A DNA stretch of 64,000 bases from Gallionella sp. (GCA_013044075.1 JABEVG010000038.1:1-64000), one strand, 5' to 3'; counted from the first letter of the stretch, positions 32,237 through 42,787 are shown. Made by a program: numbers and translations. The notes: generated from the sequence alone by a model not told the origin.

Positions 32237-32467
32237 GTTGTGCAATTTCTTGTCGCTGGTGTACCGGGCGGCATAGTGTGAACGATAAATCGGCTTCCCG
32301 CCAACGTGTCCGGCAAACTGGCGCGCGCTCAACTGTTGGTTGCTAGGGGCTATGAAATGCCCGATAATTTGCGCGTTTTTCCAAACACACGGTTTGCATC
32401 ATTTTCTCACCAGCGACCTGGCGACTTCTTTGTCCCGCACGGGGATCATCACCAACGACACACAATC

Positions 32468-33694
32468 ATGGATATTAACCACCAGCGCGCAGTTGATCGA
32501 TACGTAGGCGTGCCAGTCTGCTGGCTGCTATCTGGCGTGAATCGCCTCATCAGCAACGATCCGGATGGCGTCGCGCCGAAGAAGATCGTGGTGATCCTGC
32601 TTTCGGAGATGGGCAGTCTCGTGCTGGCACACCCGATGTTCATGCGTTTGAAGCAGCAATATCCAGAAGCGTCCCTCCATGTGCTGATGTTCGCCAAGAA
32701 CCGCGAAGTGCTGGACTTGATGGGGATCGTTCCGCGCGTGAATGTCATCACGCTGGATGACAGCGGCTTCAAGAGCCTGGTCAGAGACAGCATCAAGGCG
32801 ATCTTCACGTTGCGCAGATTGAAGATAGACGCGGCCATCGATTGCGAATTGTTCGCGCGCATCAGCAGCATTTTTTCTTATCTGTCCGGCGCAAGCTATC
32901 GCGTCGGTTTTCATCGCCATACGCAGGAAGGTCTGTATCGCGGCAACTTCATCAACCGCGCGGTGACTTACAACCCGTACCGGCACCTGACCCAGCAGTT
33001 TTTAAGTCTGGCGGCAGCTCTCGATTCCGACACCACGCCCGCCAACAAACTGTTGCCCGAGCCCTATACCGGCAAGACGCCGGTGCTGGAATTCCCCGAC
33101 GAGGAATTGCTGCAAACCACCAAAGATCTGCACAACTTCTTCCCACCCATCAAAGACAAGAAGCTGGTGCTGATCTATCCCAGCGGAGGCATTTTGCCTA
33201 TACGTGCCTGGCCGCTGAAGCACTATTGCCAATTGGCGCAGACATTATTGGACGAAGGCTATGCGGTCGGGGTCATCGGGCTCAAAGGCGATCGTGCGAT
33301 TGCGCAACAAGTGGTCGAGTTCTGCAAGAACCCGGCCTGTGTGAACCTGGCGGGCTATACCAAATCGGTGCGGCATCTACTGGCGGTGTTCCATCGCGCC
33401 TCGCTGCTGGTGACCAATGACGGCGGCCCCGGGCAATTCGCGGCACTCACGCCCAAGTTGCCGACCATCATTTTCTTCGGCCCCGAAACCCCCGCGCTCT
33501 ACAAGTCGCTGGGCGACAATTCCTATTGCTTCTATCGCGGCCTGCCCTGCTCGCCCTGCCTGACCGCATACAACCACAGAAGCTCACCCTGCGATGGCGA
33601 CAACCAATGCCTGAAGCAGATCTCAGCGGAGCAAGTGCTTGCCAAAGCGCGTGAGATGCTGGCGACGAAGCAAGCAGGCGGTGTGGCTGCATGA
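32468..33694 (+). CDS. glycosyltransferase family 9 (heptosyltransferase-like)
   Basis: A 408-residue GT-B enzyme of the ADP-heptose:LPS heptosyltransferase group. It shows KKIVVILLSEMGSLVLAHP near the N-terminus, an EASLHVLMFAKNREVLDL acceptor-side region, and the donor-side TNDGGPGQFAAL and IIFFGPETPALY. A C-terminal Cys-rich tail (GLPCSPCLTAYNHRSSPC) is common in GT9 proteins of this subtype. It probably adds a sugar to LPS core or another envelope glycan; the acceptor is unknown. The start at 32468 gives normal domain spacing, though it has a poor Shine-Dalgarno. It overlaps gtrA by four bases. Confidence 0.88.
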   Translation: MDINHQRAVDRYVGVPVCWLLSGVNRLISNDPDGVAPKKIVVILLSEMGSLVLAHPMFMRLKQQYPEASLHVLMFAKNREVLDLMGIVPRVNVITLDDSGFKSLVRDSIKAIFTLRRLKIDAAIDCELFARISSIFSYLSGASYRVGFHRHTQEGLYRGNFINRAVTYNPYRHLTQQFLSLAAALDSDTTPANKLLPEPYTGKTPVLEFPDEELLQTTKDLHNFFPPIKDKKLVLIYPSGGILPIRAWPLKHYCQLAQTLLDEGYAVGVIGLKGDRAIAQQVVEFCKNPACVNLAGYTKSVRHLLAVFHRASLLVTNDGGPGQFAALTPKLPTIIFFGPETPALYKSLGDNSYCFYRGLPCSPCLTAYNHRSSPCDGDNQCLKQISAEQVLAKAREMLATKQAGGVAA

Positions 33695-34206
33695 GTCTGT
33701 TCGCGCGCCTGTCACAGCAACCTTTGCTGGCCTGGGTATTCAAACGACGCTTCATGAAATTCGGCACGGTAGGCGCGTCCGGCGTGGTGGTCAATCTGGC
33801 CGTGTTGTACGTCTGCCAGGAATTCTTATTCCGTGCCATAGAGTCTGCCAACATGCGCCTGAATGTGTCATTGGCAGTGGCGATCTTCTTTGCCACGGTC
33901 AATAATTTCTATTGGAACCGCGCCTGGACCTGGCGTGACCGCCAGCATCACCCCGACAAACATCTGCTGCTGCACTTCGGCCAGTACGCGCTGGCGGTGT
34001 GGGTCGGCATCGTGTTGCAAGTGATTCTGACTAAACTGCTCGTGCTGCATTTGCATTACCTCATTGCCAACGCCTCCGCCATCGTGCTGGCCAGCGTGTT
34101 CAATTTTCTGGTAAACAACTTCTGGACGTTCCGCCACCACAAACCCGCCGACGAAATGGCCTTGCCCAATATTCCCGAGCTCGACGACGAGGCGGTGAAA
34201 AAATAG
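33691..34206 (+). CDS. GtrA-family membrane protein
   Basis: A 171-residue protein with four predicted membrane helices (about 25-45, 57-75, 88-108, 118-140) and the family-typical FGTVGASGVVVNLAVLYV and FNFLVNNFWTFRHH. GtrA proteins are thought to help move lipid-linked sugars, such as undecaprenyl-phosphate glucose, across the inner membrane. The start overlaps the GT9 stop by four bases (ATGA), and the next gene, a membrane glycosyltransferase that would use such lipid-linked sugars, begins 3 bases after its stop. The C-terminus is acidic. Confidence 0.9.
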   Translation: MSLFARLSQQPLLAWVFKRRFMKFGTVGASGVVVNLAVLYVCQEFLFRAIESANMRLNVSLAVAIFFATVNNFYWNRAWTWRDRQHHPDKHLLLHFGQYALAVWVGIVLQVILTKLLVLHLHYLIANASAIVLASVFNFLVNNFWTFRHHKPADEMALPNIPELDDEAVKK

Positions 34207-34209
34207 ACC

Positions 34210-35934
34210 ATGTCGAACCCGACGCGGCTTTTGCTTTGGTATGTCTGCGCAACCTTGCTTGCGGTCTGCACTTATTTCTACGGTCTGGATAGCCAGTTCA
34301 TCCCGAAGAACGGCGACGAATATCCTTATGAGCACATCACCCGTCTGACCGCTGCCAGCGGGGAGTGGCTGCCATTGCAGTCGCAGCTGGACAACATGCG
34401 CAACACCAAACCACCGCTGCTGTTCTGGCAGGGCATCGCTTCCACCCACGGCGGGCAAAACTGGACCTTGTGGGACTTGCGTTATCCGAGTGTGATCTAC
34501 ACTTTACTGACCGCCGGGCTGCTGTTCCTGCTCGGCTGGAAGCTCACCGCGAAAATCGAGACGGGCTTCATCGCCGCGCTGACGTTTCTCGCCTTCTTCA
34601 CCACCTACCGTTTCGGTCGGCCCTTTCTGACCAACGCACCGGAAGTGTTCTGGCTGTTCCTGCCCTTTTTCGCATTGTTATATTGGCGGCAGGCTTTCCA
34701 ATCACGCTTCATTATTCCGGCACTGCTGGGCATCAGCATCGGTATCGCCTTCCTGTATAAGTCATTCGCGCTTGGGCTGCCCGTCACGCTGGGCCTGTGT
34801 GGCTGGCACCTGCATCAGCGGCAATATCGCGTGCTTGCCTTCATCAAACAGGACGCTCTGAAAGTCTGCATCACGATCAGCGTCGCGGTAGGGATGTTCG
34901 CGCTGTGGTTCGCGCTGGACCCCGATCCGCAAGCGGTGTGGAAGGAGTTCGTGGTCGGCGAGAACGTCGGCAAGTTCGACCCGCACGGCCCGAGTTATCT
35001 CGCAAAATTGCTGTGGGGCGGCTCCAGTGTGTGGAGTTTCACCGCCGCCTTTTTGACCAATGCCGGACTGCTCACTTTCGTCGTCATCGCACTGTTCGTC
35101 GTGGCCTTTCAAAACCGTCGCCAGATGAGCAACGAACACAAATTATTGTGGCTGTGGATCGCGGCTCTGTTCTTCAGCTTCTGTCTGCCCAGCCAACGCT
35201 CGGGACGCTATCTGCTCGCCGCCATGCCCGCCGTCGCCTTGTTGTGCGCGCTAGATTGGCAGCACATCAGCCGCAAAGTTTTTGTTGCGACGCTGGTGTT
35301 GTGCGGCGCGCTGTTGCTCGGCCTGGCCTTGCTGGCGGTACGTTTACAAAGCGGGATCGGCGACGCACATTTGTTCCCGTCCAGTTTCTGGTTGCTGCTG
35401 ACCGGCAGCGGCATGCTGTTGTTGGTGGCCATCGTGTTGCCCGGCTTCACGCGCCCCGCCGTCAACGTGGTGGCCTTGCTGGTGCTGCTGAGTTTCGCGG
35501 CGTTCCTGCGCCCGCTGGATAACAGGCTGGCGAACTACAGCGGCGATGCGCAACGTTACGCGCAAGACAAAACAGTCGCCGTGCCGTGCAATTTCCGCGC
35601 GCACGACGAAGGGCATCGTTTCCTGTTGCCGGGCGCGCATATCGTCGGCTACCAGGAAAGCCAGAATTTGAGCGTGACGCAATTATCCGAACGGTATGAT
35701 TTGTTCGCGGTGCAGCTTCCCTTGCAGTCATCCGTTGCGGACAGTGCCTGCGCCGAATGCAAGATCATCGGCCAGCGTCTGGACATACGCGGACGACAAA
35801 GCGATGAGGAGTTGCGCGACATGTTCTTCCACGGCAGGTTCTTCGAGCATCTGTTCATCCGCGAAGTGTTGATGGCATCGTCGGTCACGCCAAAAGTCGT
35901 GGTCTCGCACACGCTTGCGGAAGTGTGCCGCTGA
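34210..35934 (+). CDS. PMT/ArnT-like dolichyl-phosphate-type glycosyltransferase (GT39/GT83)
   Basis: A 574-residue polytopic membrane protein with about ten to twelve hydrophobic helices. The first periplasmic loop after TM1 carries the acidic GDEYPYEH motif, the usual catalytic site of GT-C transferases. RFGRPFLTNAPEVFWLF and PSQRSGRYLLAAMPAVALL are also family-like. A C-terminal periplasmic domain (about 430-570) contains two close cysteines (SACAEC). Such enzymes transfer a sugar from a polyprenyl-phosphate donor to lipid A or another envelope acceptor. The ATG-region overlap with the next gene (TGATG) implies strict co-translation. Confidence 0.87.
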   Translation: MSNPTRLLLWYVCATLLAVCTYFYGLDSQFIPKNGDEYPYEHITRLTAASGEWLPLQSQLDNMRNTKPPLLFWQGIASTHGGQNWTLWDLRYPSVIYTLLTAGLLFLLGWKLTAKIETGFIAALTFLAFFTTYRFGRPFLTNAPEVFWLFLPFFALLYWRQAFQSRFIIPALLGISIGIAFLYKSFALGLPVTLGLCGWHLHQRQYRVLAFIKQDALKVCITISVAVGMFALWFALDPDPQAVWKEFVVGENVGKFDPHGPSYLAKLLWGGSSVWSFTAAFLTNAGLLTFVVIALFVVAFQNRRQMSNEHKLLWLWIAALFFSFCLPSQRSGRYLLAAMPAVALLCALDWQHISRKVFVATLVLCGALLLGLALLAVRLQSGIGDAHLFPSSFWLLLTGSGMLLLVAIVLPGFTRPAVNVVALLVLLSFAAFLRPLDNRLANYSGDAQRYAQDKTVAVPCNFRAHDEGHRFLLPGAHIVGYQESQNLSVTQLSERYDLFAVQLPLQSSVADSACAECKIIGQRLDIRGRQSDEELRDMFFHGRFFEHLFIREVLMASSVTPKVVVSHTLAEVCR

Positions 35935-37214
35935 TGTCGCGCATCACTGCCCATCGTGTGCTGCCGGTCTTGATCGTATTGGCCTGCGCGACTTCGGCCT
36001 ACAAACTCACCCATCGCCCACCACTTGCCGCATTTCAGATGCCGAGTATCGCCACATCGAACGATGCCATGCGGTTCACCACCGACTTCGTTTCCAAAGC
36101 GGAATACATTTCGACCCATGCCTCCTCGCTCATCGAATTGAACGATGGCCGCGTGCGCGCCTTCTGGTTCGCCGGGAGCCGCGAAGGGGCGCAGGATGTC
36201 GAGATACGCAGCGCGGTGTTCGACGGCAAACAATGGAGCAATGAACGCGGCATCATCGATCGCGAACACACCCAACAGGCCCTGCTGCGCTATGTAAAGA
36301 AGCTCGGCAACCCGGTCGCGGCGCGCGCGCCCGATGGGGCGATATGGTTGTATTACGTGACCGTGTCGCTGGGCGGCTGGGCGGGCAGTTCGCTGACCAC
36401 CATGACTTCGCGCGACGAGGGCGCGACCTGGAGCGCGCCGCGCCGACTCGTCACTTCGCCGTTCATCAACATCAGCACGCTCATCAAAGGCACGCCGTTT
36501 GCCTATAGCGACGGCACGCTAGGCCTGCCGGTCTATCACGAGTTCCTCGGCAAATTCGGCGAGCTGCTGCATTTTTCCCGCAACGGCGACATCCTCGACA
36601 AACAACGCTTGAGCAAAGGTAAAGCGGGCATCCAGCCCGTCATGCTGATTGAGAACCCCAACCTGGCTCTGGTGTTGATGCGCTACACCGGCGCGCCGAC
36701 CATGCGCGTGCTCGCCACACAGACCCGGGATGGCGGGCAAACATGGAGCGCACCGGTCAAGACCGATCTGCCCAATCCCGATGCAGCACTTAGCGGTGTG
36801 GTGTTGAACGATGGCCGCATGCTGGTGGTGGCCAACGATCTGGAGCAGGGCCGGGATGCCTTGTCTTTATTGGTATCCAGCAATCACGGCACAACTTGGA
36901 GCAAGGTCTATAGTCTGGAAGACCAGCGCGGGCAATCGACTCTACCGGACGACTTTCTGCGCAACTCCGCACAGCTTGCGCTCGCCTCCGATGCACACAT
37001 CACCGATGCGAATGCTTATGCGAAGTCCGCGCAGCGCAACCGCTGCGAAGCCGATCATTGCGGCTATGAATTCTCCTATCCGTATCTGATCCAGACCCGC
37101 AACGGCGACTTCCATCTGGTCTACACCTGGAACCGCAGCTTCATCAAACACGTGCAATTCAACCGCGCCTGGCTGGATGCGCGCATGACGGAATCCGATG
37201 CCGCACTACACTGA
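35934..37214 (+). CDS. sialidase-fold protein (BNR/Asp-box, exo-alpha-sialidase-like)
   Basis: A 426-residue secreted or membrane-anchored protein. The N-terminus is hydrophobic (VLPVLIVLACATSAY), acting as signal peptide or anchor. A six-bladed propeller-type domain follows with three clear Asp boxes (SRDEGATWSAP, TRDGGQTWSAP, SSNHGTTWSKV) and an Arg in FWFAGSREG near the start. Two cysteines lie late in the protein (RCEADHCGYEF). True sialidase activity is unproven; members of this family also act on other sugars or only bind. It sits in a glycosyltransferase operon, so a glycan-trimming or glycan-transferring role is a reasonable inference. Start taken at 35934, overlapping the previous stop. 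Confidence 0.85.
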   Translation: MSRITAHRVLPVLIVLACATSAYKLTHRPPLAAFQMPSIATSNDAMRFTTDFVSKAEYISTHASSLIELNDGRVRAFWFAGSREGAQDVEIRSAVFDGKQWSNERGIIDREHTQQALLRYVKKLGNPVAARAPDGAIWLYYVTVSLGGWAGSSLTTMTSRDEGATWSAPRRLVTSPFINISTLIKGTPFAYSDGTLGLPVYHEFLGKFGELLHFSRNGDILDKQRLSKGKAGIQPVMLIENPNLALVLMRYTGAPTMRVLATQTRDGGQTWSAPVKTDLPNPDAALSGVVLNDGRMLVVANDLEQGRDALSLLVSSNHGTTWSKVYSLEDQRGQSTLPDDFLRNSAQLALASDAHITDANAYAKSAQRNRCEADHCGYEFSYPYLIQTRNGDFHLVYTWNRSFIKHVQFNRAWLDARMTESDAALH

Positions 37215-37821
37215 TCTGACCGGACTCGCGGGCATCGCCAGCCTGATCGCGGCATGGGTGCTGCGACTGCCGCGCGTCAAACGCCTGCCCAAACGCCATC
37301 TGGCGATGCTCGTGGCGGCGGTATTGATCGTCTCGCTCATCCCCTTCAACGGCTTGCCGCTGGCGGCATATGTGCGCGGCATGGTGGGCGATCTGAGCAT
37401 CACCACGATGGTGTTGCTGTGGGCGGCGTTATTGCAACCCTGCCACGCGGCGACGGAACGCGGGCAGCGTGACCGCTTGCTGATGTTGATCGCGGCAACT
37501 GCTCTGGTTTTTTATCCCATGACTCTGGGCATGAGCCTGTATGACCCGTACCGCATGGGTTACGGCAATGCGGTGTTTGTCGCGTTCGTGCTGCTCATCG
37601 CCAGCGTGGCCTGGCTGTTGCGATATTCCCTGATCGCGCTTTGCCTCACCCTCGCCACGCTGGCTTGGGCACTGGGCTGGTATGAATCGACCAACCTGTG
37701 GGATTACCTGCTCGATCCGCTGGTGGCGGTTTACGCGCTGGGTGCGCTGCTTAGGCTGGGAATAAACAAACACAGAGTTTTCGGCGCGAAATCCAACCGC
37801 CAGAGATTAAGCGTTGATTGA
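37198..37821 (+). CDS. hypothetical polytopic membrane protein
   Basis: A 207-residue protein with about six hydrophobic helices (for example LAMLVAAVLIVSLIPF, ITTMVLLWAALLQP, VFVAFVLLIASVAWLLRY, DPLVAVYALGALLRLG). I do not recognise a family. It overlaps the sialidase-like gene by 17 bases and is the last gene of the GT9-GtrA-PMT cluster. This makes it a likely working partner of the periplasmic sialidase-fold protein, perhaps an anchor or transporter. The C-terminus is basic and cytoplasmic (KHRVFGAKSNRQRL). Confidence 0.78.
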   Translation: MPHYTDLTGLAGIASLIAAWVLRLPRVKRLPKRHLAMLVAAVLIVSLIPFNGLPLAAYVRGMVGDLSITTMVLLWAALLQPCHAATERGQRDRLLMLIAATALVFYPMTLGMSLYDPYRMGYGNAVFVAFVLLIASVAWLLRYSLIALCLTLATLAWALGWYESTNLWDYLLDPLVAVYALGALLRLGINKHRVFGAKSNRQRLSVD

Positions 37822-37876: not shown

Positions 37877-38656
37877 TCACTCTTGTCTCTTCAGAATCTC
37901 TTCCATCAAATAGGTATTGAGAGACGACACCAGTTCTTTTTCTGCCTTATGCAAACTGGCCTGTAATTGCACTTCCTTATTCTTTTTTTCGTCTTCGCTC
38001 ATACTCTTCAACTCATCGCTATTCTCGGTGATGAACGAGCTATCTTTCCATATTATTTGGCTATCCTTGGACGACACCAACCCACCTTCCAAAGTAACCG
38101 GTGCATAAGTCTCGCCCATCAGCCAATCGATGCCATTCCAGGTCAGGTACTCCTGACCAAACTCCTCTGCGGCAACAGCAACGCCAAGCCACGGATTTTG
38201 AGTTGCAGTACCAACGACGACTCCTTGAACGACCCCTTCTATAATCCCGGAGCCAATAAATATTTTTTTCCACCTTTCATTTAAGCTCCCATAACCGCTC
38301 AGCGTAATCGTCAGGTACAGCGCTGTCGGACTGTCGGGCAATGTTGCCGTTAACTCCTGACAGGATGGCAATTTCTTGATCACCAGATAGGGTGATTTGA
38401 TCATGTTTGCATTCACATAATCGTCAATCGTACCGAGTGATAATTTTCTGTTTTCTTCAAACTTATTTTCATTCTTTTCTTTGCTAAGCGCGTTATCCAA
38501 TATGTTCATCTGTGCCGTCGATTCAACACAATAGTAGACAGGAACAGCATCCTTTTGCTGTATGGCAAAAGGATCGTGCACAGACACTGACGAGCACCCT
38601 GAGCAAATTAACGAAACGATTGCTATGCTTACTGAACAGAGTTTGTACTGTTTCAT
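37877..38656 (-). CDS. putative lipoprotein, AT-rich gene of unknown family
   Basis: A 259-residue protein with a signal peptide ending in ICSGCSSVS, an imperfect lipobox (Cys in place of Leu at -3). A soluble domain follows that includes ALYLTITLSGYGSL and EGVVQGVVVGTATQNPWLGV, a Gly/Val-rich hairpin-like hydrophobic segment. A charged C-terminal helix is rich in Lys and Glu (about 215-255). No family is recognised. Codon use is clearly richer in A/T than in neighbours on both sides, suggesting recent acquisition. It is convergent with the glycosylation cluster and preceded by a leader with nested inverted repeats. Confidence 0.7.
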   Translation of the reverse strand: MKQYKLCSVSIAIVSLICSGCSSVSVHDPFAIQQKDAVPVYYCVESTAQMNILDNALSKEKNENKFEENRKLSLGTIDDYVNANMIKSPYLVIKKLPSCQELTATLPDSPTALYLTITLSGYGSLNERWKKIFIGSGIIEGVVQGVVVGTATQNPWLGVAVAAEEFGQEYLTWNGIDWLMGETYAPVTLEGGLVSSKDSQIIWKDSSFITENSDELKSMSEDEKKNKEVQLQASLHKAEKELVSSLNTYLMEEILKRQE

Positions 38657-39444: not shown

Positions 39445-42291
39445 TTAAATATAATTCTCTATTGGCGGACACGCGCAAATGAGATTCTTGTCGCCGTACA
39501 CATTATCCACCCTCGCGACGCTGGGCCAGAATTTATTGTCGCGCACATAATGCAAAGGGTAAGCGGCTTGCTCGCGGGTATAAGGCCGCGTCCACTCGTC
39601 CGCGCAAACTGTTTTTGCGGTATGCGGCGCGTGTTTGAGGATGTTATCTTTCTTGTCTACCTTGCCGGACAACACAGCTTCGATTTCGCCGCGTATCGCA
39701 ATCATCGCCGCGCAGAATCTGTCCAGCTCGGCTTTGGATTCGCTTTCGGTCGGCTCGACCATCAGCGTATCGACCACCGGAAAAGAAGTCGTGGGCGCGT
39801 GGAAGCCATAATCCATCAGGCGTTTCGCGATGTCGGCGACTTCCACGCCTTCGCGTTTGAAGTCGCGGCAATCCAGAATCATCTCGTGCGCGCAGCGGCC
39901 ATTCGCACCGCTGTACAGGGTCGCGTAATGATCTTTGAGCGATTCCTTGATGTAGTTCGCGTTCAGGATCGCCATCCGGGTCGCCTCACGCAGCCCCGTG
40001 CCGCCCAGCATCTTGATGTAACCGTAGGAGATCAGCAGGATTAGCGCGCTGCCATGAGGCGCGGCGGACACCGCGTGTATGCCTTGCGCGCCGCCGGTCT
40101 TGACCACCGGGTGTGCAGGCAGAAAAGGCACCAGATGCGCCGCCACGCCGATCGGTCCAGCACCCGGTCCGCCGCCGCCGTGCGGAATCGCAAAGGTCTT
40201 GTGCAAATTGAGATGGCACACGTCCGCGCCGATGTTGCCGGGACTGGTCAGGCCCACCTGCGCGTTCATGTTCGCGCCGTCCATATACACCTGCCCGCCG
40301 TTGTCGTGAACGATTTGCGTGATGTCGCGGATCGACTCCTCATACACGCCGTGTGTGCTGGGGTAGGTCACCATCAGGCACGACAGGTCGGCGCGATGCT
40401 ACTCGGCTTTCTCGCGCAGGTCGGCCACATCGATGTTGCCCTGTTTGTCGCATTTCACCACCACGATGGTCATGCCGCACATCGCCGCACTCGCCGGATT
40501 CGTGCCGTGTGCCGATGAAGGAATCAGGGCCACGTTGCGCTGGCCTTCGCCGCGTGAACGGTGATACGCCTGGATCACCAGCAGCCCGGCGTATTCGCCA
40601 GACGCGCCGCTGTTGGGTTGGAAGCTCATCTTGGCGAAGCCGGTAATCTCGGACAGGTCGGCATCCAATCCGGCGATGACCTCCTGATACCCCGCAGCTT
40701 GTTCGACCGGCACGAAGGGATGCAGGTTGGCGAATTCCGGCCAGGTCAGCGGCAACAATTCCGCTGCGGCATTCAGCTTCATCGTGCACGATCCCAGCGA
40801 AATCATCGAGTGCGTCAGCGACAGGTCTTTGTTTTCGAGTCGCTTGATGTACCGCATCATCTCGGTTTCGGAGTGATAGGTATTGAACACCGGATGGCCC
40901 AGGATCGCCGACTGGCGCGCTTTGACACGCATCGTCGCGGAAGATATCCGTACCTGTGTGACGCGCGGCGCGGACTTGCCCGCCGCTTGCGCGAACACAC
41001 TCAGCATCGCATTCAATGCATCCGCATCGGTGGTCTGATCGACGGCGATGCTCAGGCCGTCATCGGTGTAGCGGAAATTGATGCGGGCAGATTCGGCCAG
41101 TGTGCGCAATTTCACGTTATCGGTGTGCGCCACTTTGAGGGTGTCAAAGAACACCGCATCGTTCACTGTGTAACCGAGTTTTTTCAATTCGTCCGCCAGC
41201 GTCACGGCGGTCAGATGGACTTGCTGCGCGATGCCGCGCAAGCCGTCAGCACCGTGATACACCGCATACATGCCCGCCATGATCGCCAGCAACGCCTGTG
41301 CGGTACAGATGTTCGAGGTGGCCTTTTCGCGGCGTATATGTTGCTCGCGGGTTTGCAGTGCCATGCGCAAAGCAGGGTTGCCGTCGGCATCCACCGACAC
41401 GCCGATGATGCGTCCCGGCATCGAGCGTTTGTGCGCATCGCGGCAGGCAAAATACGCAGCGTGCGGACCGCCATAACCCATCGGCACACCGAACCTTTGA
41501 GTCGAACCGAACACCACGTCCGCACCCCACTCACCCGGCGGGGTGAGCAACACCAGACTCAGCATATCCGCCGCGACGGCGATGCTCATGCCATGCGCTT
41601 TAGCGCGTGTGACGAAGTCCGCGTAGTCGTGCACCGCACCATCGGCAGCGGGATATTGCAGCAACGCGCCGTACAGGTTCTCGTTCAGCGTGACGGTTTT
41701 GAAATCGCCGATGACCAACTCTATGCCCAGCGGTTTGGCGCGTGTTTTGAGTAATTCTATGGTCTGGGGAAAACAATCATGCGACACGAAAAAACTATTT
41801 TTCGCCACTTCTTCACGCGAGCGTAATCCATGCAACATGGTCATCGCTTCCGCCGCCGCCGTCGCTTCGTCCAGCAACGAGGCATTGGCGATTTCCATGC
41901 CCGTCAAATCGATGACCATCGTTTGGAAATTCAACAACGCTTCCAGACGCCCTTGCGCGATCTCGGCCTGATACGGCGTATAGGCCGTGTACCAACCCGG
42001 ATTCTCCAGGATGTTGCGTTGGATCACGGATGGCAGGATGGTGTCGTAATAGCCCAGACCGATGTAGCTCTTGTACAACTTGTTCTTCGCCGCGATGCCG
42101 CGCAGATGCTGGAGGTACGCGTATTCAGACATACCTTCCGGCAGGTTCAGCGGCTGCTTCAAACGGATGGCGGCAGGGATGGTCTGGTCTATCAGTTCAT
42201 CCACCGTGCGCGCATCGATCTTGCGCAACATGTCTTGAATGTCCTGCCCGGATGGGCCGTTGTGGCGATTTACAAATTGGTCGGTCTTCAT
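39445..42291 (-). pseudogene. gcvP: glycine dehydrogenase (P-protein), interrupted by an in-frame TAG
   Basis: P-protein of the glycine cleavage system decarboxylates glycine with PLP. A reading frame of 949 codons, the normal length, runs from the ATG at 42291 ([15 protein letters not shown]) to 39445. It is broken by TAG at 40399-40401 (about codon 631), and both halves are in the same frame. Before the stop the protein reads [11 protein letters not shown] and right after it [17 protein letters not shown], where homologues have Gln or a similar residue; CAG to TAG would explain it. The PLP lysine (LNLHKTF) and Gly-rich loop lie beyond the stop, so a truncated product would be inactive. TAG is an ordinary stop elsewhere in the window (prmA, gtrA). 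The start codon has no Shine-Dalgarno, since a repeat element abuts it. Confidence 0.88.
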
Positions 42292-42397
42292 AGGATTCAG
42301 GAATCGGGGTACAGGATTCAGGGGTGGTAATTCAGGATGCGCAGGAGTTGGATTCGAAGCAGCGGGGTTGCCGAATCCTGGCTCCCGACTCCTGCCT
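42292..42397. repeat. repeat-rich inverted-repeat sequence between gcvH and gcvP
   Basis: The 106-base gap is made of short repeated units around GGATTCAGG (three close variants in the gcvP-proximal half). It also holds a larger imperfect inverted repeat, with CAGGAGTTGGATTCG on one arm and CGAATCCTGGCTCCCGACTC on the other. Units of this kind resemble dispersed intergenic repeats. The element ends one base before the gcvP ATG. Confidence 0.6.
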
Positions 42398-42787
42398 TTA
42401 GTGCGCTTCGCTATCGACGTGTGCCTGGTACGCGGTCGCGTCCAACAGTACCGACACGTCGGTCGCACTATCCGGCTTCATCTTGAATATCCACGCGCCG
42501 TACGGGTCACTGTTGATGGTTTCGGGCGAACTGTCCAGCGCGCTGTTCGCGGCGACGACCTCACCGGACACGGGCGCGTACACATCGGCGGCGGCCTTCA
42601 CCGATTCCACTACGGCACATTCTTCCTTCGCCTTCAGCTTACGCCCGACAGCGGGTGCTTCGACGAATACCATGTCGCCGAGCAGTTCCTGTGCGTGTTG
42701 CGTAATGCCTATGGTGATCGTGCCGTCGGTTTCGGTTTTCACCCACTCGTGGGAAGCGGTGTATTTCAGGTTGCTTGGATTGCTCAT
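42398..42787 (-). CDS. gcvH: glycine cleavage system H protein
   Basis: Lipoyl carrier that shuttles the aminomethyl group between P-, T- and L-proteins. The 129-residue length is standard. The lipoylated lysine lies in [12 protein letters not shown] (about residue 65), with HEWV near the N-terminus and [12 protein letters not shown] before the lipoyl loop. AAGGAAA, 6 bases upstream of the ATG, is a good Shine-Dalgarno. It is downstream of gcvT but separated by a 130-base repeat-bearing gap, and upstream of the broken gcvP. Confidence 0.95.

Follow-up and report, generated by a model that had tools for sequence, protein, structure and literature searches.

A putative two-component Kdo hydrolase encoded in a glycosyltransferase operon of Gallionella sp.

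The last two genes of a compact five-gene operon in Gallionella sp. very probably encode, to judge by homology and gene order, a two-component Kdo hydrolase, KdoH1/KdoH2. These two genes are the invariant core of the operon. The subfamily of membrane glycosyltransferase (GT-C) encoded immediately upstream tracks the pair, and the two remaining genes, for a GT9 glycosyltransferase and a GtrA-type membrane protein, are optional. The enzyme pair is already known, and the operon around it appears to be a new variant.

Organization of the operon

The window, that is, the whole stretch of Gallionella sp. DNA analyzed here, comprises 64,000 nt. Reading of its open reading frames (ORFs) revealed five plus-strand ORFs at 32468-37821, as follows:

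32468-33694, plus strand: GT9 glycosyltransferase (PF01075, 2.9e-19; TIGR02195, 108.8 bits against a cut-off of 134.6)
33691-34206, plus strand: GtrA-type membrane protein (PF04138, 3.9e-24)
34210-35934, plus strand: GT-C membrane glycosyltransferase, ArnT/PMT-like (PF02366, 3.3e-9; ArnT model, 38.9 bits against a cut-off of 567)
35934-37214, plus strand, ATG at 35934: KdoH1-like sialidase-fold BNR protein (BNR_2, 1.2e-84)
37198-37821, plus strand: KdoH2-like membrane protein with approximately seven transmembrane helices (motifs, a model with a pLDDT of 92.8, and adjacency to KdoH1)

The GT9 and GtrA genes overlap by 4 bases, GtrA and GT-C are separated by a 3-base gap, and overlaps of 1 and 17 bases join GT-C to KdoH1 and KdoH1 to KdoH2, respectively. 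An earlier note, made from the sequence alone, had described five compact plus-strand genes with these overlaps, and its coordinates and junctions were reproduced exactly. The profile matches listed above also bear out its GT9, GtrA, and GT-C assignments. The GT9 ORF opens at 32306, and 32468 is the start that is conserved among relatives. Because the flanking genes on both sides lie on the minus strand, the five-gene unit is self-contained.

Just downstream of the operon, the minus strand encodes a probable lipoprotein without a Pfam family (37877-38656), which is also found in the closest relative of the window locus, L025. Farther along the same strand, gcvP (39445-42468) is divided between two ORFs that match TIGR00461 positions 1-623 and 633-939. 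It is a single ORF of 950-981 amino acids in the relatives L025, L026, and L031, and the split therefore points to a frameshift near 40375-40400, either real or due to assembly.

Features of the KdoH1-like and KdoH2-like proteins

The KdoH1-like protein has one hydrophobic segment, an N-terminal membrane helix at residues 6-26, behind which a six-bladed propeller is predicted on the periplasmic side. Its AlphaFold model is confident (pLDDT of 91.8) and matches sialidases in the PDB (E value of 7.6e-15). Two of the three Asp boxes proposed in the earlier note are canonical (SRDEGATW at 159 and TRDGGQTW at 264), and the third (SSNHGTTW at 315) is degenerate.

The propeller fold and the position of the catalytic Tyr are shared with GH33 sialidases. 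When KdoH1 was aligned by profile with a derivative of a bacterial sialidase, Tyr382 (EFSYP) coincided with the Tyr of the SYS motif. Together with Glu203 and Arg250, it is presumed from sequence comparison to act in catalysis; each of the three residues is conserved in 44 of 45 KdoH1 sequences, down to approximately 30% identity. The earlier note had allowed that the protein might lack a catalytic Tyr/Glu/Arg site, and this level of conservation speaks against it. The active site nevertheless departs from the GH33 set of an Arg triad, an Asp acid/base, and a Tyr/Glu pair in that the RIP-motif Arg, the first of the triad, is replaced by His62, as it is in 42 of the 45 sequences. Because of this replacement, the substrate of the protein cannot be assumed. 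It also differs from GH33 sialidases in its obligate membrane partner and in that no sialic acid synthase was found in the genome of the window.

Seven hydrophobic segments were counted in the KdoH2-like protein, and its confident model contains about seven long helices, one more than the six given in the earlier note. Invariant residues cluster in the motifs RGxxGDLS, DPYxxGY, and NLWDYLxDP. No Pfam family was matched, NCBIfam matches were insignificant with none near a cut-off, and the predicted model matched no structure in the PDB. The earlier description of a protein of no known family thus holds for these collections, but a counterpart has been described, namely, KdoH2 of the Kdo hydrolase.

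Linkage of KdoH1 and KdoH2 across genomes

A search of genome contigs with KdoH2 yielded 13 relatives, from Gallionella, Sulfuricella, Polynucleobacter, Opitutae, Legionellaceae, and other metagenome-assembled genomes (MAGs), all with a KdoH1-like gene directly upstream. When 150 genomes of the same order were searched with KdoH1, 11 loci besides that of the window were recovered, each with an adjoining KdoH2. A further 20 loci were picked from wider samples (phylum and class) for strong KdoH1 matches, and the two genes stood side by side in all of them. In total, the last two genes of the operon were therefore adjacent at all 44 distinct loci other than the window, and since this was so in every relative examined, the linkage is not due to chance. 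Within a sample of 399 genomes of the phylum, KdoH2 was carried by 20, all 20 of which also carry KdoH1, and it was absent from genomes with only weaker BNR_2 matches.

Evolutionary distances in the two proteins were strongly correlated (mirror-tree r = 0.88 for 45 pairs, a value reached in none of 1,000 permutations), with shared descent of the linked genes contributing to this correlation. Outgroup BNR_2 proteins (L110, L112, and L113) cluster apart from KdoH1, and no partner was recognized in the short stretches flanking their genes.

Relationship to described Kdo hydrolases

A two-component Kdo hydrolase has been described in Francisella novicida (Zhao & Raetz 2010), in which FTN0495 is kdoH1 and FTN0494 is kdoH2 (PMC4688374). 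Next to these genes, annotated as encoding a BNR protein (FTN_0495) and a membrane protein (FTN_0494), lies mtn (FTN_0493) (PMC2928790), and slt (FTN_0496) is located on the opposite strand (PMC6587636). The enzyme takes off the terminal Kdo at the periplasmic face (PMC5371381, PMC3245313, PMC12342981). In Helicobacter pylori, HP0579/HP0580 is the Kdo hydrolase (Stead 2010; PMC5371381, PMC3245313, PMC12342981), one review designating HP0579 as KdoH1 and HP0580 as KdoH2. When this hydrolase is lost, subsequent steps on lipid A and resistance to polymyxin are impaired (PMC3245313, PMC5371381, PMC12342981). The H. pylori proteins are likened here to the window pair by their published description.

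Homologues of both window proteins were found at a single locus (L114) of a genome of 2.14 Mb and 32% GC (G808), whose pair served as a stand-in for the characterized sequences. The KdoH1 homologue has 396 amino acids and matched the KdoH1 profile with an E value of 1.4e-69; the KdoH2 homologue has 201 amino acids (KdoH2 profile, 3.4e-10), and its gene overlaps kdoH1 by 8 bases. The gene order is slt, a short membrane gene, KdoH1, KdoH2, a second slt, mtn, and parC. The nucleosidase of this genome is closest, by a wide margin, to PDB entry 4jos, which we take to be from F. philomiragia. We infer with strong confidence that the genome belongs to the Francisella lineage. The two slt (lytic transglycosylase) genes at L114 (6526-8502 and 11109-13091) flank the kdoH pair, whereas the F. 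novicida papers mention one. In a midpoint-rooted tree, the L114 KdoH1 falls on a long branch near the partnerless BNR_2 proteins; it nevertheless carries the residues diagnostic of KdoH1.

Homology and synteny with this Francisella-lineage pair are the reason for considering the window pair a Kdo hydrolase, and the corresponding activity would be expected in the window organism. The architecture agrees as well. As in F. novicida, the gene for a sialidase-like protein, anchored by one N-terminal membrane helix, overlaps the next gene, whose product spans the membrane several times; in the window, the overlap is 17 bases and that product has seven hydrophobic segments. The published Francisella KdoH2 presumably has about seven transmembrane helices, and its KdoH1 presumably one at the N terminus. 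The window proteins differ in their low identity to the Francisella pair, approximately 20% over the C-terminal half, and in their setting, a glycosyltransferase operon instead of the interval between slt and mtn.

The genome also points to a Kdo-lipid A substrate, in that it encodes KdtA (N-terminal domain, 1.4e-56) and separate, canonical WaaC and WaaF, the true WaaF scoring 463 bits with TIGR02195. A NeuB-type sialic acid synthase was not found in the 93%-complete assembly. The only NeuB-family match is a DAHP synthase, and for this reason a sialidase directed at endogenous sialic acids was rejected.

Action of the sialidase-fold protein on a different ulosonic acid or on some other glycan, as a sialidase, Ko-hydrolase, or transglycosidase, is unlikely. 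The fold itself, the breadth of the BNR_2 family, and the substitution of His for the first triad Arg would agree with such a role, but the missing NeuB-type synthase, the invariant membrane partner, and the homologous pair in Francisella kdoH synteny argue against it. Less likely still, and in our view quite improbable, is a noncatalytic glycan-binding propeller with a structural partner. The loss of the first Arg would be in keeping with this, yet the other three active-site residues persist across distant KdoH1 sequences, and catalytic activity is ascribed to the pairs of Francisella and H. pylori.

Genes upstream of the KdoH pair

The GT9 enzyme of the operon is heptosyltransferase II-like and falls below the TIGR02195 cut-off for WaaF. 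Of the three GT9 enzymes encoded in the genome, it is the most divergent. Because canonical WaaF, WaaC, and KdtA are encoded separately, it is regarded as an extra enzyme, and its assignment as the ordinary WaaF was rejected. GtrA probably acts on a polyprenyl-phosphate sugar, as a flippase or a helper. On contig C105, a GT2 (L001, 13-828) resembling polyprenyl-phosphate sugar synthases is encoded near a second GtrA and may supply a lipid-linked sugar. The GT-C protein shares the PMT-type GT-C fold with ArnT, the GT83 aminoarabinose transferase, and matches its model weakly, far below the NCBIfam equivalog threshold. In contrast to ArnT, it represents a separate subfamily tied to KdoH, and the operon contains no Arn genes.

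The order GT9-GtrA-GTC-KdoH1-KdoH2 was observed in the window and in L025, L026, L028 (included although the end of the contig cuts GT9), L031, L032, L034, L037, and L039. The Legionellaceae locus L036 lacks only GtrA. GTC-KdoH1-KdoH2 without GT9 and GtrA was found in L033, L035 (Polynucleobacter), L038, L041, L043, L130, and L131. Five of the 150 genomes of the order contain the GT9 subfamily, which lies beside the KdoH pair in only two; in Polynucleobacter-like genomes it is unlinked to the pair they carry. A single obligate five-gene system was rejected, since neither GT9 nor GtrA always accompanies the pair and GT9 is also found apart from it. The envelope glycan pathway with its own trimming step, as proposed in the earlier note, fits the evidence.

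The window-type GT-C subfamily was detected in 5 of the 150 genomes, always directly beside the KdoH pair, and in none of the 138 KdoH-negative ones (chance of approximately 1e-6 in a simple hypergeometric calculation that ignores kinship). The pair is present in 12 of these genomes, 7 of which lack this GT-C.

Other lineages have different neighbors. An LtaS-like, sulfatase-family membrane transferase replaces GT-C on the same strand as the pair in L027 (4648-6702), L040 (9033-11015), L125, L126, L129, L132, and L133, and it is convergent with the pair in L029 and L030. In L124, an unrelated GT-C adjoins the pair, and some KdoH loci are without any neighboring transferase. A GFO/IDH/MocA sugar oxidoreductase is encoded beside or near the pair in one family of the order (L046, 6852-7853; L047, 3036-4046; L048, 10671-11690).

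DISCUSSION

In the model that we propose, Kdo2-lipid A would be synthesized by KdtA in the cytoplasm, its core would be extended by the operon GT9 along with the two canonical heptosyltransferases, and the molecule would then be flipped outward. The KdoH1 propeller, tethered at the periplasmic face, would remove the outer Kdo together with KdoH2 in the inner membrane. With GtrA helping to flip an undecaprenyl-phosphate carrier, GT-C would transfer the sugar from this carrier to LPS, probably on the trimmed inner core or close to it. As a whole, this sequence of outer-Kdo trimming and addition of a lipid-carried sugar is likely. The trimming step is well supported by sequence comparison; the identity of the sugar, the position to which it is attached, and the link between trimming and capping are what we infer around it.

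That GT-C acts on the trimmed product is plausible rather than probable. Its capping role follows from guilt by association and is plausible with the same reserve, given that the GT-C is missing from more than half of the KdoH-positive genomes of the order. More specifically, the outer Kdo might be removed so that the inner Kdo, once freed, can receive a different sugar from the operon GT-C, a dedicated trim-and-cap scheme that we put forward tentatively. It is also possible, if short of probable, that the pair is a Kdo hydrolase whose upstream genes are merely co-operonic, with GT-C modifying lipid A or a different acceptor whether or not Kdo is removed. The variety of KdoH neighbors (GT-C, LtaS-like transferase, sugar oxidoreductase, or none) and the location of GT9 elsewhere in Polynucleobacter-like genomes with the pair favor such independence. 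Against it stand the confinement of the GT-C subfamily to the immediate vicinity of the pair, in five of five genomes and in no KdoH-negative one, and the filling of the same place by a different GT-C or the LtaS-like transferase in other lineages. If the trim-and-cap scheme is true, the LtaS-like transferase would add a phospho-substituent at the inner Kdo, and KdoH would serve as a transferable unit exposing the inner core to decorations that differ between lineages.

In the open-licence literature searched, no paper describing the five-gene combination was found, and the operon, the KdoH-tied GT-C subfamily, and the wide environmental spread are apparently undescribed there. The earlier view of an unfamiliar gene set stands for the five genes together, but the last two match the known KdoH1/KdoH2. 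This match provides candidate names for two genes that family models place in a generic family at best or in none.

A few pathogens are known to remove Kdo, and in them subsequent lipid A modification and resistance to peptides depend on this step. Here, the KdoH pair is found in environmental iron-oxidizing and freshwater bacteria, in a Legionellaceae MAG, and in MAGs of Opitutae (Verrucomicrobiota), and in environmental genomes it recurrently lies beside membrane transferases. Because the pair repeatedly adjoins such transferases across lineages, these findings suggest a general coupling between Kdo trimming and renewed decoration of the LPS inner core.
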